NCBI RefSeq assembly: GCF_000384035.1
Contig: NZ_KB913024.1
Location: 945,655 to 1,009,654, forward strand
Source of the DNA: Actinopolyspora mortivallis DSM 44261
GTDB taxonomy: Bacteria > Actinomycetota > Actinomycetes > Mycobacteriales > Pseudonocardiaceae
Direction of reading: 5' to 3'
DNA length: 64,000 bases
The notes below the pieces were generated by a model. It saw only the letters and a list, made by a program, of their open reading frames with translations, was not told the DNA's origin and searched no databases. The stretch's first letter is position 1. Every line of letters starts with the position of its first letter. The translations under genes and the position numbers were made by a program. Below, piece by piece: positions 4,540-63,523 of the stretch.

Positions 4540-5418
4540 GTGCAGTCTTACACGGGACCGGAGTTCTTCAAGGGCCACGGCACCGAGAACGATTTCGTCG
4601 TGCTGCCCGATCCACGTGGTGAGCTGGAGCTGACCCCGGACAGGGTTCGGGCGTTGTGCGACCGCAGGCGTGGTCTGGGAGGCGACGGCGTGCTCCGGGT
4701 GGTGCCCACTGCTCTGCTGGGTGAGCCGGCACCCGGTGACGTTCCGTCCGGTGCGTGGTTCATGGACTACCGCAACGCCGACGGCTCGGTGGCCGAGATG
4801 TGCGGCAACGGTGTGCGGGTGTTCGCGCGGTACCTCTTCGAGGCGGGACTGGTTTCCGCCGGTGAGTTCGTGGTCGGCACCAGGGCGGGCGCGCGCACCG
4901 TGGGAGTGGGGCCGCCGGGACGGGTGACGGTGGACATGGGGGCCGCCGCCGTCCGCGGGCACTCCAGTGTGACCATCGACGGCTACGCCATGTCGGCGCT
5001 GTCGGTGGACCTGGGAAACCCGCATCTGGTGTGTCTGACCGGGGAGGTCTCCGAGCTCGACCTGTCGGTGCGGCCGGGCTACGACCCCGAACTCTTCCCC
5101 CAGGGGGTGAACATCGAGCTGGTCGAGCCGCTCGACGGGGAACGGATCAGGATGCGGGTCTACGAGCGTGGAGTGGGTGAGACCCGTTCCTGCGGCACCG
5201 GAACCGTGGCGGCCACGGCCGCCGTGGTGCGCGCCGCCGGGGAGGAGCGCGGCTCCCGGATCGTGCTGGTGCCCGGGGGCGCCGTGGAGGTCGAGGTCAC
5301 TCCCGAGACGAGCACGCTCACCGGGCCCGCCGAACTGGTGGCGCACGGACGGCTGGACGCCGCGTGGTGGAGTTGTCCCGAGGGGGCCCCGTTGACCGTT
5401 TCGGGGGTTGATCGCTGA
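4540..5418 (+). CDS. dapF: Diaminopimelate epimerase DapF
   Basis: 292 residues. It converts LL-DAP to meso-DAP for lysine and peptidoglycan synthesis in the cytosol. The two catalytic cysteines are both visible: Cys88 in AEMCGNGVR and Cys218 in RSCGTGTVA, and the N-terminal GTENDFVV motif is present. The fold is two pseudo-symmetric halves of about 130 residues. The start is GTG 4540, with no Shine-Dalgarno but a TAGACT hexamer 6 bp upstream. The gene follows miaA by 9 bp, and hflX follows on the same strand. Confidence 0.97.
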   Translation: MQSYTGPEFFKGHGTENDFVVLPDPRGELELTPDRVRALCDRRRGLGGDGVLRVVPTALLGEPAPGDVPSGAWFMDYRNADGSVAEMCGNGVRVFARYLFEAGLVSAGEFVVGTRAGARTVGVGPPGRVTVDMGAAAVRGHSSVTIDGYAMSALSVDLGNPHLVCLTGEVSELDLSVRPGYDPELFPQGVNIELVEPLDGERIRMRVYERGVGETRSCGTGTVAATAAVVRAAGEERGSRIVLVPGGAVEVEVTPETSTLTGPAELVAHGRLDAAWWSCPEGAPLTVSGVDR

Positions 5419-56875: not shown

Positions 56876-57229
56876 GGCACGTAACTGTAAGCCCACCTCG
56901 CCTCCGGTCGTCCGCGCCACGCCGTGGATCATCCACAAGTTCCTTCGAACGAAGTCGGATCCTCACGCAACGGTGCGGTATGTGTCCCGAGTGTGACCGG
57001 CCACCACAGGACCGGCCGACTCTCCCGGGTGCGCGGCGTGCGAACATGACCTCGGAACCGTCGTCACGGATCCGCGCCGCCGGTGGCGGAGTGGTTCGTT
57101 CCGGTCCGCTCGCCGTCCGCTCCGGCGCGACCGGTCGGGCTGCCACACCGCCCGCCACGGACGTGCGGCCCCGCACACCATCCGGGCGTGATCCCACGCC
57201 CGCCAGTCCCTCCGACCCGGGGAGTTTTC
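56876..57229. promoter_or_regulatory. Divergent promoter region of the DUF3000 gene and hemE
   Basis: 354 bp with no gene. TACAGT (56889-56884, minus) is the DUF3000 -10. CTTCGAACGAAG (56944-56955) is a short inverted repeat. The hemE promoter is not clear; its ribosome site GGGGAG is at 57219-57224. Confidence 0.4.
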
Positions 57230-58330
57230 ATGAGCCTTCCCGCGAACGCGTCGAACCGCCGTCGGCTCGACGACGCGCCGTTGCTCGTGGCCGCACGTGG
57301 GGGCACACCGGCGCAGACCCCGGTGTGGTTCATGCGTCAGGCGGGGCGCTCGTTGCCCGAGTACCGCAGAGCCAGGGAAGGGGTGCCGATGCTGCGCGCC
57401 TGCCTCACCCCGGAGCTGGTCTGTGAGATAACACTACAGCCCGTGCGCAGGCACGGCGTGGACGCGGCGATCCTGTTCAGCGACATCGTGCTCCCGCTGT
57501 ACGCCTCCGGGGTGGAGCTGGACATCGTCGCGGGGACCGGTCCGGTGGTCAACCACCCGGTGCGCGGGGCGGCCGACGTGGCCGCGCTGCCGGGCCTGCG
57601 CGCCGAGCAGGTGCACGGGGTGGGCGAGGCGGTGCGACTGCTGGTCCACGAGCTGGGCGAGACCCCGTTGATCGGTTTCGCCGGCGCCCCGTTCACGCTG
57701 GCCTCCTATCTGGTCGAGGGAGGTCCCAGCCGCAACCACGAGCGGACCAAGGCCCTGATGCGCTCCGAGCCGGAAACCTGGCACGCGTTGCTCGGCAAGC
57801 TCGCCGAGAACACCCTCGAGTTCCTGAGGGTGCAGCTCGACGCGGGCGTGGACGCGGTCCAGCTGTTCGACTCCTGGGCCGGAGCGCTCTCCCCACACGA
57901 CTACGCCACCTACGTGCGCCCGCACACCGACAGGATCCTGCGGGGAGTGGCCGAGTACACCGACGACCGGGTTCCCCGCATCCACTTCGGGGTCGGCACG
58001 GGAGAACTGCTCGGTTCCATGTGGGAGTGCGGGGCCAGCGTGCTCGGGGTGGACTGGCGCGTGCCGCTGGACCGCGCGGTGCGGCGGCTCACCCCGATGG
58101 GAGGCGAGCCGCCCGTCGTGCAGGGCAACCTCGATCCGGCCGTGCTGTTCGCCGACTGGGAGTCCGTGCGGAGTGAGGTGGACCGCATCCTCGCCGAGGG
58201 GCGTTCCGCCGGTGGGCACGTGTTCAACCTCGGACACGGGGTGCTGCCCGACACCGACCCGGACGTGCTCACCGGCATCGTCGAGTACGTGCACTCCGTG
58301 AGTCGCACGGCCCGGCTGGACCACGCATGA
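57230..58330 (+). CDS. hemE: Uroporphyrinogen decarboxylase HemE
   Basis: 366 residues. It decarboxylates the four acetate chains of uroporphyrinogen III to coproporphyrinogen [19 protein letters not shown], the [10 protein letters not shown] substrate loop (its Asp being catalytic), [23 protein letters not shown] and [10 protein letters not shown] are all present. ATG 57230 has GGGGAG upstream. It overlaps hemG by 4 bp (ATGA). Confidence 0.97.
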
Positions 58331-59736
58331 GTCGTGTGGCCGTGGTGGGGGGTGGAGTCTCCGGTCTGACCGCCGCCCACCGTCTGCGCACCCTGCTGGG
58401 CCCCGAGGCGGAGATCGTCGTCGTCGACCGGGCGAACCGGCTCGGAGGAAAACTGTACACGCACCGGATCGCGGGTAGCGGCTACGACCTCGGGGCGGAG
58501 GCCTTCCTGGCCCGGCGGCCCGAGGTGCTCCGACTGGCCGAGGAGCTGGGACTCGACTCGGAGCTGGTGTACCCGAGCGGCGCCTCGGCGCGGATCCGGG
58601 CGGGTGGACACACCCTTCCGCTGCCGAGCGGGATGTTCATGGGGGTGCCCACCTCGGCCGAGGCGGTGCGTTCCGTGCTGTCCCCCGAGGGGTGTCGGCA
58701 CGTCGAACGTGAGACCGAACTCCCCCCACCGAGGTGGGAGGGCACCGACGTCTCCGTGGGCGAGCTGCTGCGCTCCAGGTTCGGTGCCGAGGTGGTGGAA
58801 CGCCTGGTGGAACCCCTGCTCGGTGGGGTCTACGGCGGATCCGCCGACGACCTGGGACTGCGCGCGACGATGCCCGCCCTGGCCGAGGCGCTGGACGCGG
58901 GGGCGCCTTCGCTGACCGAAGCGGCCGGCAGGGCCGCACCCGCCCCGTCCTCCGCGACCGGGCAGCGCCCCCCGGTGTTCGGCGCTTTCACGCACGGTTA
59001 CGACACCCTGGTGCGCGGACTGGCGGAACGGGCGCGGGCCACGGTCGAACTGGGACTTCCCGTGCGGGAACTGCACCGCTCCGGCGGGAGCTGGGAGCTG
59101 GTCGTGGGCGGCGCCCACCGGCCCCGGACGTTGACGACCGACGCGGTGGTGCTGGCCGTGCCCCCACCGGCGGCCCGGGACCTGCTCTCCGAGGTGGCTC
59201 CGGAGGCCTCCGTCGGTTTCGGACGGATCAGACAGGCCTCCATGGCCGTGGTCGGCATGGCGCTGCCCGCCGGGGTGGAACCGCCGAGCGCCTCCGGAAC
59301 GTTGGTGGCCCGTGGGGAACGGCACTCCGACGGCACGCCCTTCACGGCGAAGGCCTTCACCTTCTCCAGCACCAAGTGGCCGCACCTGCGCGGCAGTGGC
59401 GGCCAGCCGCTCGTGCGGGCCTCGGTGGGCCGAGGGGATCCGGCCGAGCTGCGCGGAAGCGACGCCGAACTGCTGCGGCTGGTGCGCGCCGATCTGGCCG
59501 AGCTGACCGGGATCACGGCGGAACCGGTCGAGACGGTCGTGACGCGCTGGGGAGGAGGAATTCCCCAGTACGGCGTCGGTCACACGGAGACGGTCGCCGC
59601 CGTGGAGGAGGCCGTGAACCGGCTACCCGGCCTCGCCGTCGCGGGGGCGGCGTTGCACGGGGTGGGGGTTCCGGCGTGTGTGGGAACCGGCGAGGCGGCC
59701 GCGCGGCGGATCGCCGGGCAGCTGTCCCGTGACTGA
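58327..59736 (+). CDS. hemG: Coproporphyrinogen III oxidase / protoporphyrinogen oxidase, HemG/HemY (CgoX) type
   Basis: 469 residues. FAD-binding [13 protein letters not shown] (residues 8-20), the acidic end of strand 2 in [11 protein letters not shown], a substrate domain with [16 protein letters not shown], and the C-terminal FAD segment [22 protein letters not shown] split. In actinobacteria this enzyme oxidises coproporphyrinogen III to coproporphyrin III. Coupled to hemE (ATGA). Confidence 0.95.
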
Positions 59737-59778
59737 CCTCTCCACGGCGGGCGTTCCGCGCGGTGGCAGACTGAGGGC

Positions 59779-60477
59779 ATGGCCCGCCTGAACTACGCCG
59801 AGCTGAACGAGACGATCCGCTACGCCATGTGGTCGGTGTTCCGGGTGCGCCCCGGGGAACTGCCCGAGGACAGGGAGAAGGCGGCGTCCGCGACCAAGGA
59901 GTTCCTGGAGGGGCTGGAGGACTCCTCCGGCGTCGTGGTGCGCGGTGTCTACGACGTGTCCGGACTGCGGGCGGACGCGGACTTCATGATCTGGTGGCAC
60001 GCTCCGCGCGTGGAGGATGTGCAGGCGGCCTACACGGCCTTCCGGCGGGAGACCCCGCTGGGGCGCGCGAGCGATCCGGTGTGGAGCAATGTGGCGGTGC
60101 ACCGGCCCGCCGAGTTCAACAAGAGTCACGTCCCGGCCTTCATCGCGGGGGAGGAGCCCCGGGCCTACGTGTGCGTCTACCCCTTCGTCCGTTCCTACGA
60201 GTGGTACCTGCTGCCGGACGACGAGCGCAGGGACATGCTCGTGGAGCACGGCAAGGAAGCGCGGGACTACCCGGACGTGCGCGCCAACACCGTCCCGGCC
60301 TTCGCGCTGGGCGACTACGAGTGGATCCTCTCCTTCGAGGCGGACGAGCTGTACCGCCTGGTCGACCTGATGCGTCACCTGCGGGGGACCCAGGCCCGGC
60401 TGCACGTCCGTGAGGAGACCCCTTTCTACACCGGTCCCCGGGTGGACGTGGAACAGCTGCTCACCCGGTTGCCCTGA
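59779..60477 (+). CDS. hemQ: Coproheme decarboxylase HemQ (ChdC)
   Basis: 232 residues, chlorite-dismutase fold. It decarboxylates coproheme to heme b, the last step of the coproporphyrin-dependent pathway. [42 protein letters not shown] (the catalytic Tyr region) and [12 protein letters not shown] (the axial His) are present. ATG 59779; CAGACT (59767-59772) 6 bp upstream is a weak leaderless -10. Ferrochelatase (hemH) is not in the window. Confidence 0.95.
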
Positions 60478-61341: not shown

Positions 61342-61641
61342 TCAGCTGGCGAACACGTACACCAGCACGTTCCACACGGTGAACCCCACCCCGAACAGGA
61401 TCAGGGCTACCACCAGGACCGCCAGCAGCCTGCGCTGTCCGCGCAGCCGGTTCGCGCTGTGCGCGAACTCCCCGACGCCACGCAGCATCCCCTCCACGGT
61501 CGCCCTGGAGTCGCAACGCTCCATGCGGTCGAGATGCGCGGCGAACTCCCTGGTCTCGGGGTCATGCGGGTCCAGTCCGACCAGGTCCTCGGCGAAACGG
61601 CCGGCCGGCTCGTCCGGTTCACCGTGCTCGGCACGTGGCAT
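61342..61641 (-). CDS. Small conserved membrane protein
   Basis: 99 residues. A soluble, charged N-terminal two-thirds (DPETREFAAHLDRMERCDS split, VEGMLRGVGEFAHSANRLRGQ) and one C-terminal helix (LLAVLVVALILFGVGFTVW), so tail-anchored with the bulk in the cytosol. No function is recognised. ATG 61641 has TACCGT (61653-61648) 6 bp upstream, implying a leaderless transcript. It is divergent from the Cys-rich peptide gene. Confidence 0.75.
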   Translation of the reverse strand: MPRAEHGEPDEPAGRFAEDLVGLDPHDPETREFAAHLDRMERCDSRATVEGMLRGVGEFAHSANRLRGQRRLLAVLVVALILFGVGFTVWNVLVYVFAS

Positions 61642-61647
61642 GGCAAC

Positions 61648-61653
61648 ACGGTA
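61648..61653 (-). promoter_or_regulatory. -10 hexamer TACCGT of the small membrane protein gene, leaderless
   Basis: TACCGT on the minus strand is 6 bp before ATG 61641, the same layout as msrB. Confidence 0.5.
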
Positions 61654-61723
61654 ACCCGCCGTGCCAGTCCGTGCGTGACTTTCACCCGGGAGTCGTCACG
61701 GGGTCCTGGTGGCGAAAGAGCGG

Positions 61724-61729
61724 TATCCT
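61724..61729 (+). promoter_or_regulatory. Candidate -10 (TATCCT) of the Cys-rich peptide gene
   Basis: TATCCT predicts transcription from about 61736, with a ~69-nt leader to ATG 61805. The -35 is not clear. Confidence 0.4.
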
Positions 61730-61804
61730 CCTTCCGGCGGTATTCCCGGCTGTCCGTCGGGGGCAGGATCCCTCGGTGGAAGTTCCTGCGATCGGGAGGC
61801 CGTC

Positions 61805-61909
61805 ATGGAACAGACAGCAGTGCACTCCACCATCGAGACACACTTCGGCGGTTGCGGTTGCTGCAGCAGCTGCAGCGGACCGTCCTGCGGGTGTTGCAGC
61901 AGCTGCTGA
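61805..61909 (+). CDS. 34-residue cysteine-rich peptide with Gly-Gly and two CGCCSSC blocks
   Basis: The N-terminal 16 residues (MEQTAVHSTIETHFGG) have no cysteine and end in Gly-Gly; the last 18 residues are CGCCSSC-SGPS-CGCCSSC, eight Cys and six Ser. ATG 61805 has GGGAGG 5 nt upstream (61794-61799). A candidate promoter lies upstream and a 15-bp hairpin directly downstream, so this is a free-standing gene. The layout resembles a RiPP precursor (leader, double glycine, Ser/Cys core as in thiazole/oxazole peptides). A metal-binding peptide is equally possible: eight thiols in CxCC and CxxC spacing. No cyclodehydratase, lanthipeptide or radical-SAM enzyme is in the window. I do not recognise the family. 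Confidence 0.6.
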   Translation: MEQTAVHSTIETHFGGCGCCSSCSGPSCGCCSSC

Positions 61910-61918
61910 CCGACACCC

Positions 61919-61954
61919 CTGTTCCGGGTCGGTGTCACCACCGGCCCGGAACAG
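61919..61954. terminator. Long hairpin after the Cys-rich peptide gene
   Basis: CTGTTCCGGG (61919-61928) pairs perfectly with CCCGGAACAG (61945-61954); inside, CGGTG/CACCG closes on a TCAC loop, with a T-G pair joining the two stems, for about 16 bp. It lies between the peptide stop (61909) and the convergent hydrolase stop (61970). No U-tract. Confidence 0.65.
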
Positions 61955-61969
61955 TCGTCTCGGGACCGC

Positions 61970-63523
61970 TCAGGCCGGGCAGGTCGTTTCCGGGGCGGGG
62001 AGGCTGCCCTCGCCGAAGAACCGTTCGACGATCCCGGTCACGCAGTCGGACCGCCCGAGCGCTCCGTGGCCGCTTCCCAGCCAGTTCACCGTGATCCCCT
62101 GGGTGAGGCTGTTGGCGAGCTTCTCACCGCCCTGGGCGGGCAGGAACGGATCGTGTTCGGTGGTGATCACCGGCACGGGGGGAAGGTCCCCGTTCCCGGG
62201 GGAGGGAAGCGCCTCCTGCGGACGTGGCCACGGTGAGCACTGAACGAGTTCCTGGGCGAAGACCCCACCGAACAGGGGGAGTTCGTTCACCCACTGCCGC
62301 ATGACGTCGGTGGCCCGTTCCGGGGGAAGTCGCACCATGGTGTCGTTGCACCTGGTGATCATGCGGGCGTCCAGTTCGGTCGGTGCCGGCACCGGGTCGC
62401 GGACGAACGAGGCCAGTTCGGTGGCGTCTCCGTCGTCCGCCGCGGCGAGAGCCTCACCCAGACGGGGCCACGAATTCCGCTCGGCCAGCCCGCCCAGCAC
62501 TGCGCGGATCACTTCACCGGGACGCAGGGCCTCGGCCGTCGTGGACAACCCGGACTCGCGTGCCTTCCGCAGCAGTCGCTGTACCAGTTCCCGTGGGGTC
62601 TCATCCAAGGCGCAGTCCTGGCCCCGTCGGCACCACTGGGCGAACCTGTCGAAGGTTCTCTCGGCACTGCGGGCCTGGTTCTTGGCGCGGGCGAGTGGGT
62701 CGAGCACGGGATCGGGGACACCGTCCAGCACCATCCTCCCGACAGAGTCGGGATACCTCCGGGCGTAGGTCGTCAGCACCCGTGAGCCCTCGCCCCGCCC
62801 GATGACGTGCAACCTGGGCACTCCCAGTTCGACGCGCAGCTCCTCCAGATCCTCGGCCGTGTGCCGGGTGTCGTAGGTCTGGGCGCGGCGCTCCAGATCG
62901 AGCAGGCACTCGTTGCTGGCCGAACGCGCGGAGTCCAACAGTTCGTCCAGCTCGGAGCCGCTCTCCGCCCGCGGGTCGAACCCCGTGAGGGTGGCGCGGT
63001 CCGCCGGGGGGACGCAGTCGAGTGGATCGGACTCGCCGCTTCCCCTGCGGTCCACTCCGATGAGGGTGAACTCGCGCAGCATCTCCTCGGGAAGCTGGGT
63101 GGCCAGCCGCGCCGCGAAGGTGGTGCCCGGCTCCCCGCGAATGTCGTTGACCACCACCAGCGGGATCCCTCCCGTGCCCACCCGCAGCAGGGCGATGCGC
63201 ATGGTTCCGCCGTACCGCATCCGGTCGGAGCCGACAGCGGTGGTCATGCGGGCGCAGGAGAAACGCGTGTCCTCGGCGGGCTCGGCTCCGTCCAGCTCGT
63301 TGCTGGTGCTCGCGGTGCAGTCGTGCCAGTCGAGTGCCTGCCGCCCCTGCGGCCCCAACGGCGGGAGGGGGCGTGGCCCGGGTGAGCCCCGGTCCGGGGG
63401 AACCTGCTGCTGCTCACCCCGCTGGGCCACCGCCGGACGGTCCGAGGGGCCGGCCGAACAGGCTGGGACCGCCAGCAGTAACAGCACGGCACAGATCCGT
63501 CCGACGAGGCGCGTGGGGGGCAC
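61970..63523 (-). CDS. Lipoprotein of the alpha/beta-hydrolase (TAP-like) family, nucleophile replaced
   Basis: 517 residues. Signal peptide with lipobox (LAVPAC, Cys22), then an alpha/beta-hydrolase of the secreted tripeptidyl-aminopeptidase type, with GVDRRGSGES and a C-terminal TAP-like domain (VITTEHDPFLPAQGG split, GSGHGALGRSDC). At the nucleophile elbow, where the family has GxSxG, the sequence is GRGEG (242-246): Gly244 replaces Ser. The acid (TEHD) and His (GHG) remain. It is probably inactive or altered. GTG 63523 has AAGGAG 6 nt upstream. Confidence 0.85.
   Translation of the reverse strand: MPPTRLVGRICAVLLLLAVPACSAGPSDRPAVAQRGEQQQVPPDRGSPGPRPLPPLGPQGRQALDWHDCTASTSNELDGAEPAEDTRFSCARMTTAVGSDRMRYGGTMRIALLRVGTGGIPLVVVNDIRGEPGTTFAARLATQLPEEMLREFTLIGVDRRGSGESDPLDCVPPADRATLTGFDPRAESGSELDELLDSARSASNECLLDLERRAQTYDTRHTAEDLEELRVELGVPRLHVIGRGEGSRVLTTYARRYPDSVGRMVLDGVPDPVLDPLARAKNQARSAERTFDRFAQWCRRGQDCALDETPRELVQRLLRKARESGLSTTAEALRPGEVIRAVLGGLAERNSWPRLGEALAAADDGDATELASFVRDPVPAPTELDARMITRCNDTMVRLPPERATDVMRQWVNELPLFGGVFAQELVQCSPWPRPQEALPSPGNGDLPPVPVITTEHDPFLPAQGGEKLANSLTQGITVNWLGSGHGALGRSDCVTGIVERFFGEGSLPAPETTCPA

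Follow-up and report, generated by a model that had tools for sequence, protein, structure and literature searches.

The locus considered here raises the question of whether a very short, cysteine-rich open reading frame (ORF) in Actinopolyspora mortivallis DSM 44261 is a gene and, if so, what its product does. The ORF lies on the forward (+) strand of a 64,000-nucleotide stretch of DNA (hereafter the window) and runs from an ATG at 61805-61807 to a TGA at 61907-61909; its 34 codons plus stop (61805-61909) specify a microprotein of 34 residues whose eight cysteines all fall within the last 18 positions. The Shine-Dalgarno sequence GGGAGG (61794-61799, +) is positioned five bases 5' of the ATG, and a Shine-Dalgarno sequence with its start codon is the strongest motif found 5' of 58 homologues. 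The product is divided into a variable N-terminal extension (residues 1-14; 61805-61846, +), which is absent or short in many family members, and a core, CGCCSSC-SGPS-CGCCSSC (61853-61906, +), whose conservation emerges from comparison of homologues. The two CGCCSSC blocks are encoded by 21-mers at 61853-61873 and 61886-61906 that differ at two synonymous sites. The core coding pattern occurs a single time in the window and in none of 100 shuffles, and an Rfam scan of the window gave no matches. A preliminary description of the locus had reported the same ORF, Shine-Dalgarno sequence, peptide sequence and 21-nt repeats, all of which are confirmed, and had called the gene free-standing; both flanking genes in the window are indeed on the other strand.

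A DNA search of the genus recovered the 34-codon frame in all ten genomes, with the Shine-Dalgarno region nearly unchanged. Across the eight distinct orthologous sequences in the genus, residues 15-34 have a pN/pS of 0.078, compared with 0.38 in residues 2-14. The 34-residue ORF is a genuine conserved coding gene under purifying selection, and apparently one that annotation has overlooked. Selection at the protein level had been proposed in the preliminary description and is borne out by a pN/pS of about 0.08 in the core. Neither a lack of homologues with a conserved frame nor a dN/dS near 1, which that description had named as evidence against the gene, was found.

Beyond the genus, a profile built from 29 representatives and applied with a cut-off of E up to 0.01 matched 203 of 297 genomes and 44 of 46 genera of the Pseudonocardiaceae, counts that include some false weak matches and miss some members. 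On reading, the weak matches L161 (G652), L164 (G597), L165 (G046) and L166 (G053) proved false (the match in G652 is the sole one listed for genus g42), while L155, L157, L158, L160, L162 and L163 are divergent true members. Two further loci, L167 (G012) and L168 (G024), both with an E of 0.09, lie above the cut-off yet read like divergent members. Every listed genome of genus g8 has two or three peptide matches, and different cores are found there at two unrelated places (e.g., L057 and L062, both in G059). A scan of named genomes returned at least 11 loci; among the matches listed, all belong to Longimycelium, Lentzea, Saccharomonospora and Saccharopolyspora. Outside the family no convincing copy was found, and the partial, weak matches in 8 of 396 genomes sampled from the phylum and 3 of 150 sampled from the order (best E 0.0015) were taken as a group to be chance because of their low scores and partial coverage.

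Databases of known families and structures contain little that resembles the peptide. None of the 29 members matched a Pfam or NCBIfam family at E up to 1, although matches weaker than about 0.1 are mostly removed by the filters of HMMER. Plasmid, blastn and tblastn searches gave no match, although a low-complexity filter may hide a query of this kind. Among solved structures none is meaningfully related (the best, at E 0.21, is a prestin STAS domain), and no paper on this peptide was found in a literature search whose coverage leaves out most subscription journals.

The eight-cysteine core was present in all 40 regions fetched for good matches (33 by a strict and seven by a looser pattern) and has the general form CxCCxxC-[ST]GPx-CGCCxxC. 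In a 29-row alignment the eight cysteines, the G of the GP turn and the G of CGCC are all invariant, the cysteines in a partly circular sense, because the rows were chosen with the cysteine pattern. Among 89 distinct copies, collected with a pattern that fixes the cysteines, almost every spacer residue is S, G, T, N, A or K, only one position is a near-constant S/T, and the stop codon directly follows the last cysteine (64 copies) or comes one residue later (25 copies). Mean cysteine content is 29.5%, and F, Y and W are missing from 65 of 70 ORFs, the window copy being among the exceptions. In divergent members CxCC becomes CxCxC, or the first cysteine is lost. The blocks had been described as identical with silent differences in their DNA; the two synonymous differences stand, but exact block identity is specific to the window species, in which block 1 reads CGCC; it is CSCC in the nine remaining genomes of the genus. 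A recent duplication of the CGCC block is not indicated, because this identity occurs in the window species alone, and it was rejected, the two-block form being family-wide. AlphaFold2 gave no confident fold for the metal-free peptide (mean pLDDT 60.3, pTM 0.19), and this low-confidence model is compatible with an apo-metallothionein and not specific to one.

Gibbs sampling of 58 upstream regions yielded the motif TCnCcCGngCgGCGGT, with 14.7 bits over 16 nt as compared with 5.8-6.8 bits in shuffled sets (best of 15 runs for the real set, best of 4 for each of four mononucleotide-shuffled sets). In the window this promoter-proximal element occupies 61726-61741 (+) and reads TCCTCCTTCCGGCGGT, against a consensus of TCnCcCGnnCgGCGGT. 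Counted over 70 non-redundant copies, at least 9, 10 or 11 of 13 bases are matched in 69, 53 and 33 copies, as against 33, 8 and 1 for the reversed motif; since 33 of 70 copies match 9 of 13 bases even with this control, weight attaches to the stricter cut-offs and the spacing alone. The hexamer CAGGAT (61764-61769, +), a weaker form of a -10-like element (YAnnnT), begins 22 nt after the GCGGT of the window copy. At offsets of 22-23 nt after the element, TAnnnT is found in 40 of 69 copies and YAnnnT in 51 of 69, versus at most 7 for other neighbouring offset pairs. The motif bits overstate independence, because related species remain in the set, and the fixed spacing between the element and TAnnnT is the stronger result. 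In about 10 copies the distance between the motif and the chosen start exceeds 100 nt, which probably reflects an incorrect start or a motif match by chance. The candidate promoter of the preliminary description is strengthened by an element and a spacing conserved among homologues; a generic sigma-70 scan of 61600-62050 returned no promoter, and recognition of this one depends on the homologue comparison. From its location we infer that the element could be bound by an activator in contact with the -35 position. A stricter motif gave 13 matches in nine of the ten genus genomes, eight at the peptide gene and five elsewhere, and its reversed control also gave five; neither the window copy of the gene nor that of G008 is matched by this stricter pattern. 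Matches away from the peptide gene are therefore no more frequent in the genus than expected by chance, which leaves no metal regulon to be named. In several genera a second conserved stretch, CATAGCGA...GCATGTGTCAC, was seen by eye directly 5' of the promoter element (L074, L079, L080 and L031).

Downstream of the stop codon, the hairpin of about 16 bp noted earlier was found again at 61919-61954 (+), with a folding energy of -40.1 kcal/mol and a z of -6.1 against 200 shuffles. This 16-bp hairpin has no T-tail, and a scan of 61600-62050 for T-tail terminators found no match. Over the 75 nt that follow the stop codon, z falls below -2 in 62 of 89 distinct copies (a set that is not redundancy-reduced) compared with 3 of 89 in an upstream control, whereas stem counts alone do not discriminate (86 versus 82 of 89). 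The window hairpin is a probable transcription end.

The genes around the peptide vary. In the window, the gene to the left encodes a 99-aa protein without a Pfam match and the gene to the right a TAP-like hydrolase; further to the left come a gene for methionine sulfoxide reductase (SelR) and a set of heme genes. The heme run (57083-60477) includes a uroporphyrinogen decarboxylase, an amine-oxidase-type flavoprotein and a chlorite-dismutase-like protein. The nine window neighbours were scanned against Pfam, while genes at other loci were called with a crude script and judged by reading. By these means the next called gene downstream at 33 loci is on the other strand in 19 (a convergent TAP-like hydrolase in 12) and co-oriented in 14. 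Of 20 further regions, 17 contained the module and three did not, and the neighbours differed again; no gene is common to all of the peptide loci compared. A recognised RiPP enzyme is absent from the nine window neighbours, in keeping with the earlier remark that no modifying enzyme is nearby, and none was noticed by eye at other loci; nor was a metal transporter or chaperone noticed by eye among the neighbours of the other loci. At L177 a gene that by eye encodes a MerR-like regulator is found two genes downstream of the peptide, an arrangement not seen at other loci.

The module is also found in viruses. A viral-contig search together with an exact pattern scan detected it in at least four IMG/VR contigs, always inside larger proteins, with the pattern GCxCCxxC[ST]GPxCGCCxxC (L189/L193, L190/L191, L192 and L194). 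The embedded eight-cysteine modules lie at 5001-5057 of L189, 5001-5060 of L190, 1880-1933 of L192 and 5068-5121 (-) of L194. One of the proteins containing it has 1513 aa and a portal domain (PF04860). Three other frames, of 365-442 aa, are similar to one another by eye; in the one that was scanned, a region outside the module weakly matches a head-maturation protease (PHROGs, E 6e-6). The L190 protein also has a CxxCxGxG pair. Since the viral copies lie inside larger proteins, the 20-residue module can be an internal part of a protein.

Taken from sequence, the peptide is rather likely to be a free-standing, family-wide metallothionein-like microprotein. The product ends in two four-cysteine blocks with an [ST]-G-P turn between them and small residues between the cysteines, and it shows the sequence characteristics of the metallothionein class: it is small and cysteine-rich, has CxC, CC and CxxC motifs, and contains few or no aromatic residues. 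No signal peptide is visible by eye. The shifts from CxCC to CxCxC and the losses of the first cysteine argue for a thiolate cluster, which would be more tolerant of such changes than a fixed disulfide or azole pattern. The embedded viral copies, one of them with its CxxCxGxG pair, likewise suit a metal-binding module. In the proposed mechanism, the peptide would be cytosolic, and its eight thiolates would wrap around several clustered soft metal ions, either Cu(I) or Zn(II)/Cd(II), and so buffer or sequester them. The promoter element would be an activator site that turns the gene on when metal (or thiol stress) rises, and the N-terminal extension, where present, would be an accessory tail rather than a cleaved leader. 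The preliminary description had offered metal binding as its alternative, and this fits the composition and the conserved thiols with their partial freedom of spacing, as well as the apparent absence of a leader and the disorder of the model predicted without metal.

Its first choice was a RiPP precursor with a leader-GG-core layout, matured in trans, in which the cysteines (and S/T) would become thiazoles, thioethers or similar structures and the GG would be the cleavage site. A core rich in Cys, Ser and Gly that closes the ORF would suit such a precursor, as would an N-terminal part less conserved than the core (pN/pS 0.38 versus 0.08) and the occurrence of GG in 42 of 70 copies. With starts chosen by the best Shine-Dalgarno sequence, which is a judgement, the ORF has 25-36 aa in 37 of 70 non-redundant copies and 21-23 aa in the other 33, so that in 33 of 70 the leader is missing. 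Longer upstream starts are possible from the sequence in 22 of the 33 short forms, a point in favour of a precursor; 11 have no ATG or GTG within 40 codons that would give more than seven residues before the first cysteine (TTG left out), and five have no other ATG or GTG at all within that distance. The share of A/T-ending codons before the first cysteine is 0.75 in forms that start there (28 copies) versus 0.35 in long forms (34 copies), which fits a true start in the short forms. A leader is therefore not found family-wide, although the window copy itself has an N-terminal part of 14-16 residues. The GG junction is likewise not a conserved feature: the pair before the first cysteine is GG in 42 of 70 copies, and in the 28 others it is SG (11), GT (6), DG (5), GS (2), AG (2), SN (1) or RG (1), so no conserved GG (or GA/GS) cleavage motif was found. 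The core offers a single near-constant S/T, the neighbours include no recognised RiPP enzyme, the viral copies are internal, and there is no NCBIfam or Pfam family match. The N-terminal part does not behave like a leader as far as these comparisons go, and the RiPP reading is not supported and seems unlikely.

Three other explanations were weighed. Ribosome behaviour at the cysteine codons could control a downstream gene, the ORF then being a cysteine-responsive leader or regulatory short ORF. A cysteine-rich short ORF followed by a hairpin speaks for this, as does the occurrence of polycysteine regulatory short ORFs in mycobacteria, which belong to the same taxonomic order (PMC9094748). The next downstream gene in the window is on the other strand, however, so no co-oriented regulated gene follows; elsewhere 19 of 33 loci have it on the other strand and 14 have it co-oriented, with no gene common to these loci. 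The conserved G and P and the length of the core are features of a protein, and this kind of regulation is very improbable. A thiol-redox or cysteine-reserve peptide that binds no metal, taking part in disulfide exchange linked to mycothiol, serving as a sink for it, or working as a small redox switch, would explain the CC and CxxC pairs and the frequent proximity of a SelR gene. Once, at L080, the convergent downstream gene encodes a protein that by eye reads like a cysteine dioxygenase. Such neighbours belong to separate transcripts and differ from genus to genus, and eight cysteines in CxCC and CGCC exceed the needs of a redox pair; a redox role is doubtful, though the least so of the alternatives. 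The two four-cysteine blocks would also match two zinc sites, and the peptide could be a free-standing, protein-binding structural module that docks to a partner as the viral version presumably does within its larger proteins. No partner is known, AlphaFold2 gives no confident fold, and we regard a docking zinc module as distinctly unlikely.

A strongly selected gene that is present in most genera of the Pseudonocardiaceae, a family of antibiotic producers, has no Pfam or NCBIfam model, and a product of 21-36 aa is easily missed by annotation. If the peptide does bind metal, as the metallothionein-like reading supposes, few bacterial metallothioneins would be shorter; thiolate clusters could then be studied in a minimal model of 20 residues, and the defined promoter would offer a way to find the activator of the gene. 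With copies also embedded in viral proteins, one may further ask if the module serves generally as a building block for metal binding. The fullest version of this picture is tentative, with somewhat less than an even chance: a metallothionein of as few as 21 residues (eight cysteines), among the smallest bacterial metal-handling proteins, occurring in most Pseudonocardiaceae genera, with an activator of its own that acts through a possible single-gene element, and with its module also in head proteins of viruses of high-GC bacteria. For the preliminary description as a whole, the free-standing, selected gene with its flanking promoter and hairpin is upheld, the metal-binding alternative fits, and the leader-GG-core RiPP is not supported.

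Several known systems resemble the peptide in part. Polycysteine regulatory short ORFs of mycobacteria were reportedly described by Canestrari et al. in 2020; they are likewise short and cysteine-rich and occur in the same taxonomic order of bacteria, but the peptide gene differs from them in its Shine-Dalgarno sequence, its own promoter and hairpin, its lack of a common downstream operon and its conserved non-cysteine residues. The viral eight-cysteine modules share the pattern of the peptide and differ in being internal, and common ancestry is undecidable for a module of 20 residues. Fungal mini-metallothioneins of the Neurospora crassa type have about 25 residues and seven cysteines, with G or S between them; they are unlike the peptide in their fungal origin and in their cysteine spacing. 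The bacterial metallothioneins (SmtA, the Pseudomonas type and MymT) are likewise small and very cysteine-rich, with CxC, CC and CxxC motifs and few aromatics, and MymT of Mycobacterium tuberculosis was also a small ORF that had not been annotated (PMC7558416). Compared with the descriptions of SmtA and MymT, the peptide is distinguished by its length of 21-36 aa, its two-block eight-cysteine core with a GP turn, and the absence of a Pfam or NCBIfam match.
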